Shown: positions 32,061 to 60,340 of the stretch, piece by piece
Layout: every line of letters starts with the position of its first letter
Position numbering within the stretch: the stretch's first letter is position 1
The notes under the pieces: model-generated
The model's input: only the letters and a program-made list of their open reading frames with translations
What the model was told of the DNA's origin: nothing
Database searches by the model: none
Position numbers and translations under genes: made by a program
Assembly (NCBI RefSeq): GCF_019649055.1
Contig: NW_026570354.1
Span: 62,001-126,000 of the forward strand
Direction: 5' to 3'
Source of the DNA: Paramacrobiotus metropolitanus
Taxonomy: Eukaryota; Tardigrada; Eutardigrada; Parachela; Macrobiotidae
DNA: 64,000 nucleotides

Positions 32061-35000
32061 TTATTCTCCGGGCGCATCCGAATGAGGGCACCATGCTAAA
32101 TAGTCTCTGGCAAAGAGGGCTTGAGATATTTTCCCCAATGGCAAAGAATCAAAGTTTCTCACATCCAGGTTGGCCCAGAATTGTTTGGGTTGATACGTAA
32201 AGCTGTAACTGCAACCACGAAACGTAAATACAGCGGAAAACAAACGTATACGTAGCAATAAAAGATAAGAAGGTGAAAACAAAAATTTAAGTGCTTCGAA
32301 TCTGCCCGGACGACACGCTGGGTCAGTCTTTAATGTCTAGATATCGTTCAATAGAGCCGTGTTTGTAAAACTGTAGATGGGCCCGAAGATGCAGGTTTGT
32401 ACCGTAGAAATCAGTAACTGACAGTTTCAGGAAAAATCTAAAGGTTATTCTATTAATACTATATTGCAGAAATGCTGCATGACGCTAATATCGTCTCGAC
32501 TGACTGCATAAGAAGGTGCAGGGAATTAGGACAATTAATTTTTTCATCACAAACCGTTTATTTAAACTCAAAAACTGTAGAGGTTTCAGTTTTTTTTCTG
32601 TTTCCCATGAAAGCTATGGTTTGTTATTACTTACAATCTGATCAGGTATTTAAATGCATGCCACTCGTTCACGAGAGGTTCATCGCGCAGAAGCCATTGT
32701 GCGTGCAAAGCCTTAAACTGCTCCTTGACCACTGCGTCCACGACAGGACAGTGTTGCTCCAGAGCTATTTTGAAGATCCGTACAATTTCCGTATCAGAAG
32801 TGGAACCATCCCAACTCAAATGCGGTATGGTTACAACCAAGGGTATGTCGTCGCGATAACCCGGCATCTTGACCAGGCCAATATTGAAGATCTGGTTGCT
32901 GATTGTCACACTGAAACGGGACAAAACCAGACGACCTGTCTGATGACACGTTCGTGCAAATGGGAACCGCGTTTCTAAGGCCCCATCCCGATCCCATTGG
33001 GCTGGCGCGTGCGGGAATGTAGCTGGTCGGAAATAGTTCTGCAGTGATAGTACAGTCAGCAGTTTCCGCTTTAGGGCCAAGACGTAGGAAACCACATAAT
33101 CCATGGCTGGAAGTTCATTATAGTCGACTAAATTCACAAGCGCGAGACCGGTTGTCTTCCGCATGACGAATTTGTCCAACAGGAAGCCAATGCGATAGCC
33201 TTCTGTTTCCCGGAAGTAGAAATTGTTCCTGGTTACAACGCCTAAGTTGATAATCGTTAGCGTTGAGAGGCAACGCGGGTCAGTAAGCAGCAGGTTCCAA
33301 GTCTTGCATGCGCTGCAATAGCGTTAAATACATGTTAATCATTAAATTCGTATTTCCCACAAGCACTACGAGTAGTAAAAACCTGCCGTAGATTGCTATT
33401 CAAGAACTTCGACGCGTCGTATTATATATATGTACACGGACTCTTTGCGTTAAACGAGAACCAAAATTATAAAGATTTATGGTTTTACATTTCAGTAGTA
33501 ATTTCTGGAAGCGTCGTACACAGTTTCTAAATACATAGATCAAAAACGCCTTTTAAAAAAGTATATACCAAGAAGTTAAGAACGATTTCGAGGTTTTTCG
33601 AAGTTCATAAAAAAATTAAAAGACTTCTAGACTCTTAAAAAATCCTTACATTTTTATAATGGTCTAGGTAAAATCCATGGCTACAGTGCCAAAAATTGCA
33701 CATTGCCCAGATATGATTAGATCGTAATTCGGATCCGGAAATTACCATCGCCCTTACCGTCTGCATCTGGCAAGCGAATGAACGTCGATGTAAGCGAATA
33801 CTTGAGACAAAATTTCCATAGGCAGGACGGCGATGTGAGCTTGGTCCAACTCTACAAAAAGAGTTGAAAAACCTATATATACGAGTATACATGATAATAT
33901 TATACTGCGATATACCGTACTGAAATAAAGGTGCACTTTCGTGCGGAGCGCGAACCTAACAAACGGCTTGACTGCACAAACCGCCAGAAATTCAGTACAA
34001 AAATTTTATGCAGTTTTTTCTAAAACCGGTAAACTTTTTTAAACAATAGCCCTCCGCTACTGCTTTGAAGTAGCCATGTTATACTGCATTGAAAAGCTCA
34101 GAGATTTAAAAAAACGTGTTTCTCCACGAGAATTTATTTTCTTTTTCTCCAGTCTTCCCGCTTGTGTGAATGCAGAATTCGTTGTTCCCATAAAACAACA
34201 TTTCATGCCAAATGATGCCATTTCATGCCATTTCATGCCCACCGTAGACACTGAAACTTCTAAATATGCTAACGACGAGAGAATATTTTCGAAGTTTTTT
34301 CACTTTTCTACGGTCCGTATGCTGAATAGCTTTCGATTGTCGGCAACGGTGTTTTCTGATTCTGAATGGAACAGCTGGGTTGGAGTATACCTTCTTTTGT
34401 TGTGGCTACAAAGATCTATAGATCTAGATAACTTCATAACAAACTTCTCGTATCAAAAAGTACAAACTGCCGGATTGCAGCCGGAAGCATTAATCCAAAT
34501 CTATCTTAAATACCTTTTGAACAAAAAATAAATCTCGTGCGAAGCCGATGCTTTATTTTGCTCCGGTCATCGATAGAAATTTCATAAAATAAATTGCTTT
34601 TATTACATGAGCGTGTCTAGAAGTATCAATTTTTTTAACCTGATGATTTTTATTGTTAAGGAGCATAAAAATAACTTGCTCAATGCAACTGTCAAAAAAG
34701 GCGGACTTTTAAGCATCAACTCTTCGGAATTGCAGAAACAAATTACGAATCCGGTGATCAGGATTTCCTATCCAAATACCAAACTTACCAAGAGCAATCT
34801 GACCGCTGAAGCCACCACCTTCGGCACTTCGACTAGCTGGATGTGCTTTCGGGATGAGCAAACAGCCGTACAAATACTCCGCCGCAGCCGCCAGTTTTTC
34901 TCCGGCGGAGATGTACCAGAAATTGGTTCTATCGAGCCCGCTCGCTGGCAGAATATGTAGAATTACAAAAGTGATTGATTCTGCGCCGATCCTGACAAAT

Positions 35001-35777
35001 AGTCGATCGGTTATTGAGAGACATGCTCTTTTCTGGCGAGGCCGCGGTCGACCTCCCCGAAACGCTATATCCAAAAATGCGCAGACACGACGCTCATCCG
35101 CTATGGAAAAGGCATCAGCGCCATTCAACGGCATTACATGTTTAATAAAATGAACTGCTCCAGGTTGGCCGACCAAGGAATTCTTAGATGAAACCGGCAA
35201 TTGCATTACTACAATGTACGACAAAAAGAGGTTGAACCGATCAGTCGGTCCGCGGTTCAAAATAACCTCGCAACGACACGCCACCACTAAAACTTGGACG
35301 CTTGCGAGGTTATTTTGAACCGCGGACCGACTGATCGGTTCAACCTCTTTTTGTCGTACATTGTACCTGCCAGCGATGCACAATGTTGACCGTTGCTTGA
35401 CTCGATGAATTCTTCGGGGCTTTAACGCAACATAGACATAAGGTGCTGTCCGCACACCTGTTAAGAATCTTCCCTGGTCGAAATATATATGCACCCTTCC
35501 ATGGTCCATCGTTGGTCCGTAAAGCTACGTACACTTCCGTATTAGCTTTGTGAAACAGCGAGATCGCGTTGTGCTGCCAGACATGTCGCTTATGTAGCCA
35601 ACGCGCCGATACGGTGACTGAATCAAAGTCAATAAACACGGTGTCGTTCTCCATGTCCTGTAGATAACCCAGAGCAAAAACGCCTTGTTCCAGTTGAACA
35701 AGGACCGTGTTCGCCATGTTGATTTGGCGACTGCCGCGGGGTCCTCCCGTGAAAAAGTCTGAAGTGTCGTCAGCCAT
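32061..35777 (-). CDS. F-box protein with a conserved-looking N-terminal region, five exons
   Basis: Spliced gene of predicted 585 aa. Proposed exons on the minus strand are 35777-35360, 35208-34789, 33851-33758, 33312-32635 and 32208-32061; all phases agree. The ATG at 35777 has an A at -3 and G at +4. Residues ~21-75 (beginning MANTVLVQLEQGVFALGYL, then VFIDFDS and SARW) look like a small beta-barrel of Tudor/SH3 type, but this is tentative. The F-box spans ~287-325: LPMEILSQVFAYID, SLARCRRACKTWNLLLTDP. It is split by a 445-bp intron (GTAAGG to TTGCAG) that restores the motif exactly. F-box proteins bind Skp1 and present substrates to SCF ubiquitin ligases. The remaining ~260 residues are not recognised as LRR or WD repeats. 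The first intron is the inverted-repeat element at 35210-35365; an alternative in-frame splice uses the donor at 35366 and a TCTAAG acceptor ending near 35190. If the element is not spliced the gene is frameshifted. Confidence 0.82.
33852..34788 (-). other. 937-bp third intron of the F-box gene
   Basis: Bounded by GTAAGT (34788) and CTTTTTGTAG (33852), phase 1 on both sides. It contains a 151-codon plus-strand open frame (34076-34531) with no recognisable domain, and a short tandem ATTTCATGCC run near 34200-34240. A TATATATA string lies just upstream of the F-box exon, so an internal promoter cannot be excluded. The plus-strand frame is probably chance. Confidence 0.6.
35210..35365. mobile_element. 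Inverted-repeat MITE forming an intron (introner-like)
   Basis: Two perfect 64-bp arms (35210-35273 and 35302-35365) face each other across a 28-bp spacer. The outermost bases of the arms are TA, and removing the element plus one TA rejoins the two F-box gene reading frames exactly. The inferred event is therefore a 152-bp element inserted at a TA with a 2-bp target duplication, as in Tc1/mariner-type MITEs. On the gene strand a GTACGA donor (35359) lies inside the arm. The TAG acceptor (35211-35209) is made from the duplicated TA plus the next genomic G. Splicing these removes 151 nt and keeps frame with one extra codon. Perfect arm identity points to a very recent insertion. Confidence 0.8.
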
Positions 35778-58798: not shown

Positions 58799-58980
58799 AT
58801 CGACCGAAGCGAAGCGAAGGTCCTCTATGTTCAAGAAAACGGGAATTTTTGTGCGTCGGTCACGCACGTCGGTCACTAAGTTGTCGGTCACGCCCTAAGT
58901 AGTTAGGGCGTGACCGACACTTAAACATAGATGAGACTGCTAGGCGCTCAATAACATTTAGGCCCTACAACGTAGGGAAC
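58799..58980 (+). repeat. ~180-bp direct repeat with perfect hairpin, copy 1
   Basis: From TCGACCGAAGCGAAG to GTAGGGAACC, matching 60159-60340. Contains repeated GTCGGTCACG and a perfect 16-bp hairpin: GTCGGTCACGCCCTAA (58883-58898), loop GTAG, complement 58903-58918. Confidence 0.8.
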
Positions 58981-60158: not shown

Positions 60159-60340
60159 TCGACCGAAGCGAAGGTCCTCTATGTTCAATAAAACGGGAAT
60201 TTTTGTGCGTCGGTCACGCACGTCGGTCACGCACAAAGTTGTCGGTCACGCCCTAAGAAGTTATGGCGTGACCGACGCTTGAACGCGGTTAAGGGACATC
60301 TAGGTGCTCAATAATACTTACGCACTACAGCGTAGGGAAA
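60159..60340 (+). repeat. ~180-bp direct repeat with hairpin, copy 2
   Basis: Same sequence as 58799-58980 with substitutions. The hairpin arms are 60241-60256 and 60261-60276 with one mismatch and loop GAAG. Confidence 0.8.

Follow-up and report, generated by a model that had tools for sequence, protein, structure and literature searches.

Within the window, by which we mean the whole 64,000-nt stretch of Paramacrobiotus metropolitanus DNA that was analysed, the coding sequence of one F-box gene on the reverse strand is interrupted by a short palindromic element (Table 1). The gene is otherwise intact: its F-box exon and third exon are open, the second intron has the donor ACG/GTAAGG, and the protein read from exons 2 and 3 gives an F-box-like match of 40 bits against a cut-off of 24.3. 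The initial annotation had described two perfect 64-bp arms around a 28-bp spacer, with TA flanks and no divergence between the arms, and the inverted-repeat analysis of the window agrees: the 64-nt arms are 100% complementary, the spacer is 28 nt long and, since the arms contain the flanking TA, the element proper measures 152 bp. Its transcript strand folds at -132 kcal/mol, whereas shuffled sequences average -50 (z -19.5), so that the palindrome is far beyond chance expectation. An Rfam search of the window returned zero matches at the gathering threshold. The window also holds a second inverted pair, of 37 nt (58883-58919 and 60240-60276, GTCGGTCACGCCCTAA..), which is palindromic in itself.

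Table 1. Features of the interrupted F-box gene and of the inserted element, in window coordinates.
Feature	Position	Strand	Basis
152-bp palindromic non-autonomous transposon	35212..35363	.	letter-identical to copies L001, L002, L004 and L005
TA target-site duplication, left	35210..35211	.	TA/TA in 44/46 two-ended copies
TA target-site duplication, right	35364..35365	.	TA/TA in 44/46 two-ended copies
Inverted arm 1, including TA	35210..35273	.	inverted-repeat analysis
Inverted arm 2, including TA	35302..35365	.	inverted-repeat analysis
Candidate donor GTACGA inside the arm (splice A, 151 nt)	35354..35359	-	in-silico splice
Candidate boundary donor CAG/GTACAA (158-nt splice B, 184-nt splice C)	35361..35366	-	in-silico splice
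Candidate acceptor TAG, formed by the duplicated TA and a G of the host	35209..35211	-	in-silico splice
Candidate alternative acceptor AG (CATCTAAG), 184-nt splice	35183..35184	-	in-silico splice
Coding sequence before the insertion, from ATG 35777 to ..VHRWQ plus one base	35366..35777	-	paralog matches
Open frame after the insertion (VMQLPVSS..), to its stop	34712..35209	-	residue 263 is the end of the query taken from it
F-box exon, acceptor CTCTTTTTGTAG to donor ACG/GTAAGG	33758..33851	-	putative boundaries
Third exon, after acceptor TATTGCAG to end of open frame	32634..33312	-	putative boundaries

As the initial annotation had stated, removing the element together with one TA leaves a single continuous frame, in which VHRWQ runs into VMQLPVSS; with the element left in, the host frame stops eight residues past VHRWQ. 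The protein of the empty site was used to search for paralogs, and 145 places out of 647 candidates were scored, two of them being the host gene itself. Among the other 143, 142 align unbroken across residue 137, the insertion point (counted by eye), with one internal stop in 8 of the 142, and the single place that does not cross this residue stops at residue 107. Seven paralogs that were fetched are contiguous at the insertion motif. Since the paralogs are empty and contiguous at residue 137, the insertion is derived and went into a previously uninterrupted exon.

The element belongs to a family whose ends read CAATGTACGAC. The 21-nt end matches the genome, with at most two mismatches, at 88 + 81 places, against 0 for the reversed control; 100 of these 169 matches were listed, and 60 loci fetched from among them make 61 with the window. 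The two-ended copies number 46 including the window, the remaining 15 of the 61 loci, single-ended or odd copies, being left out. TA stands on both sides of 44 of the 46 (the other two have AA/TA and TA/CT), a target-site duplication like that of Tc1/mariner MITEs, and the family likewise combines terminal inverted repeats and many copies with the absence of a transposase, for which 152 bp is too short. We conclude that it is a multicopy, TA-targeting, non-autonomous transposon; the palindromic transposon of the initial annotation is thereby upheld as a DNA transposon. Five copies, that of the window among them, are identical over all 152 bp; a sixth (L003) has a single-base difference, and L006 is two bases shorter in a T run, which may be an assembly error. 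Such identity between copies suggests a recent spread of the family.

The common long form (L011) is 556 bp long and almost wholly palindromic. The first 92 and last 62 bases of the 152-bp form match its two sides, with a 2-base overlap: the short form is a deletion derivative of the long one. In the long form and its relatives the arms are about 244 bp long and near-perfect. A 1.49-kb relative (L050, on G000:C51) has ends 86-95% alike to those of the family over 39-51 bp and holds a broken-frame transposase (Pfam DDE_3, E 8e-21), in which 34 residues separate the second D from the E (hand count). The DDE_3 (DD34E-type) link to the family ends comes from this single, broken-frame copy; it points to Tc1-like elements, and we infer from it that the short family is probably Tc1-like too. 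This assignment leans on the end similarity of L050, since a transposase of the exact 152-bp family was not found among the loci examined. Another locus (L009) was considered as an autonomous element and rejected: its interior carries a gag-like zinc-knuckle frame (by eye) and showed no transposase, so that it looks like a nested insertion. Five further loci (L071-L075) form a related subfamily, with ends CAATGGACGAC in place of CAATGTACGAC.

The reading that we favour, at a probability of roughly 0.8, is that a palindromic MITE of the Tc1/mariner type jumped very recently into an exon of one gene from a large F-box family. The 152-bp form would have arisen by internal deletion of the palindromic form of about 556 bp and then spread as identical copies, one of which would have inserted at a TA in a coding exon of the F-box gene, duplicating the TA. 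Once transcribed, the element would form a long hairpin. As it brings a stop codon, the protein would by default be truncated before the F-box. Where the target TA precedes a G, the insertion could also create a potential GT..AG intron with three bases left over, in any phase and at any length, and the window gene may occasionally be rescued by splicing. The exonic insertion is well supported; an intron function is a candidate only, and so is the 'first intron' that the initial annotation placed at the element.

Three splices were drawn in silico. Splice A (AAT/GTACGA..ATTGTAG) uses the GTACGA that lies within the element ends, six bases in from the TA; it removes 151 nt in frame, as the initial annotation had calculated, and changes V to QL. 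Splice B (CAG/GTACAA..TTGTAG) removes 158 nt, namely the interval 35209-35366 under which the initial annotation listed its intron; CAG is then followed directly by TAA, and the frame ends immediately. Splice C (CAG/GTACAA..CATCTAAG) removes 184 nt in frame, with ten residues deleted. Against the U1 consensus both candidate donors are weak, the boundary donor having the longer run of matches. Because both its sites keep a fixed distance from the element ends, splice A always leaves three extra bases, and it suits any element length and phase, given a G after the TA.

The alternative that survives best, although we regard it as unlikely, is that of a nascent intron, in which the arm donor GTACGA and the acceptor made of TA plus G are spliced efficiently to give the F-box protein with one more residue. 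Splice A is open, in frame and nearly neutral, as a working intron needs, and an intron-like pyrimidine tract, CTCTTTTTGTC, lies at the element ends upstream of TTGTAG; these points count against our preferred reading, as does the otherwise intact host gene, except that intact flanks are uninformative here, the insertion being young. There is also precedent: in C. elegans, Tc1 insertions are reportedly spliced from pre-mRNA, a result ascribed to Rushforth and Anderson, 1996. At one Tc1 insertion described in PMC4910058, 3 of 5 cDNAs are given as in frame, with 48 extra bases, through splicing or imprecise excision.

On the other side, both sites of splice A are within the hairpin or at its base, where the predicted fold pairs the donor GTACGA and also its complement beside the acceptor. 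Splice sites that are base-paired are more probably hidden than helped. The initial annotation expected a stem of this strength to draw the two splice sites together; that argument cuts both ways, and as modelled the stem would more probably hide the candidate sites. Paired with the same acceptor, moreover, the boundary donor brings in a stop (splice B). Nor is the fit of splice A rare. When the element was placed in silico at 266 TA sites in the open frames of seven paralogs, a G followed the TA at 39, an open in-frame splice of the 151-nt type arose at 32, and some in-frame GT/AG pair was available near the ends at 198; with this last figure, the in-frame argument becomes weak. In its boldest form the idea would make the locus a tardigrade intron caught at birth, with a donor from the MITE arm and an acceptor from TA and the host G, and the family an accidental introner of built-in frame-safe design. 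Any TA-G insertion would then add exactly three bases, whatever the phase, the orientation or the element length. We consider this reading unlikely.

One might speculate instead that the transcribed hairpin serves chiefly to produce small RNAs targeting the transposon family, and not as an intron. A perfect 64-bp stem and the many near-identical copies would suit such a role, but nothing beyond stem and copies points there, and we consider it improbable.

A further possibility, proposed by the initial annotation, is that the element multiplies by making introns in many genes, the window copy being one case. Introners are defined by Gozashti et al. 2022 (PMC9860276) as at least four similar introns after paralog filtering, with similarity to both splice boundaries, and the classes given there include cases with a 5' site in the element and a 3' site co-opted at the target-site duplication, as well as cases in which splicing adds codons. 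The present family resembles these classes in being multicopy, with target-site duplication and terminal inverted repeats, a candidate donor in the arm and a candidate acceptor at the duplication, and the window copy did enter an uninterrupted exon. The definition asks for four or more such introns in genes that are not paralogs; among the copies tested, no second fitting copy appeared.

Four of the copies examined lie in host coding exons (the window copy, L001, L029 and L055), and in the window copy alone is the TA followed by G. An identical 152-bp copy (L001, G000:C29:133455-133610) interrupts an LRR gene of a tandem cluster, at a site that is contiguous in three tandem paralogs (82-87% identical); a T follows its TA, and the LRR gene has a 7-nt deletion relative to its three neighbours. 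A remnant of about 390 bp (L055, G000:C122, around 369540-369935) interrupts a coding exon of another F-box gene, at a site contiguous in paralogs at 80, 69, 67 and 59%, some weaker matches ending before the point. Relative to paralogs L076-L078, an end of the element and about 8 bases of the host are gone, and the base after the TA would be T, judging from L076. This remnant was considered as a second introner-like case and rejected, as an end is lost and splicing GTACGA..CAACAG would break the frame (by hand). The fourth, a 548-bp copy (L029, G000:C76:410698-411249), sits one base into a BTB exon, by our placing of the boundary, and splits the BTB Pfam match at profile positions 69/70, again with T after the TA. 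Many-member families host the F-box and LRR insertions.

Across the family we joined the flanks of each copy and measured the open frame spanning the site, taking as threshold the 243 aa below which 95% of 4161 control TA sites fall. These spans replaced a codon-usage score of the flanks, for which the training sequence was too small, even the window gene scoring badly. Two of the 46 two-ended copies, the window and L021, exceed 243 aa and the other 44 fall below, so that the 46 copies show no enrichment across open frames. The frequency of G after TA (12 of 92 ends of the 46 copies, against 15.1% in the flanks) is no more suggestive. Pfam scans of the flanks, covering 73 of 130 flank frames, and follow-up scans gave kinase, F-box, LRR, BTB and mariner transposase matches together with weak ones. 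The mariner transposase match, in the flank of L003, is itself a transposon; a midasin lid match (9e-5) occurs among the flank frames. Twelve exact matches to the end plus TAG were found among those listed, the window included. For the window one alone did we find coding sequence on the strand concerned; the other exact loci retrieved showed none running across the site on this strand.

Two individual candidates were rejected as introner cases when the other exon could not be placed: L020, beside which a kinase frame starts 19 nt away, and L014, with a 7TM-like frame by eye and a weak Pfam match. A third (L058), with TA-G and a frame of 106-108 aa directly after it, was set aside as the upstream frame closes within 3 codons and the scanned frame has no Pfam match. 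L014 (G000:C8:370011-370578) stands at the TA of GTATATG beside its 7TM-like frame, possibly within an existing donor site.

The initial annotation had asked how many copies genome-wide sit at introns flanked by TA. There are many TA-flanked copies; no second copy fitting as a clean intron was found among the 46 two-ended copies and the 73 of 130 flank frames scanned. A few element-bounded introns may exist elsewhere, since about 40% of the end matches lie outside those listed and 11 of the 61 loci entered neither the span test nor the Pfam scan. At the level of the family the introner reading is not supported by the tests run, and we hold it very improbable; the family has the look of an ordinary MITE that targets TA. 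As for an ordinary old intron later filled by a transposon, at least one copy of the family (L021, with TATTTTGCAG immediately after the element) does appear intronic, but the uninterrupted paralogs, and the conserved frame that closes without any intron remnant when element and one TA are taken out, have already refuted this as far as paralogs can show.

What the window offers under the preferred reading, an exonic MITE insertion, is a clean and young case with empty paralogous sites. Spliced, it would give an intron of nearly zero age; unspliced, the locus simply shows a MITE disrupting a gene that belongs to a large family. The strain appears to be one with published RNA-seq, that of Paramacrobiotus sp. 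TYO described in PMC8277472, with raw sequencing data under BioProject PRJDB7223, which gives a direct way to learn whether a TA-targeting MITE can produce a functional intron in a tardigrade.

Among the open-licence PMC papers listed for tardigrade introners, transposon-derived introns and tardigrade MITEs, titles and abstract openings contain no report of this element, and the word "tardigrade" is absent from the main text of PMC9860276. Like the introners described in that paper, the window copy is a transposon in an exon, with a candidate 5' site in the element and a candidate 3' site at the target-site duplication, and the codon-adding splicing described there has its counterpart in splice A; it differs in that the copies tested here include no family of element-bounded introns, and most two-ended copies have no long open frame across the site. 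With Tc1/mariner MITEs the family shares the TA duplication, the terminal inverted repeats and the short deletion derivatives in many copies; one relative (L050) with similar ends carries a broken-frame DDE_3 transposase. The family departs from them in that the arms take up almost the full length of the element, that of the 556-bp form included, and in that no autonomous member with the same ends was identified among the loci examined. The closest parallel for the splicing is that of Tc1 in C. elegans, where a TA-flanked transposon likewise lies in an exon and an in-frame message can still be made, with the difference that removal from the message has been reported there, whereas here it is an in-silico splice of a perfect hairpin of 152 bp. 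Splicing of the window element, if it occurs, would by this analogy be of the kind known for Tc1.
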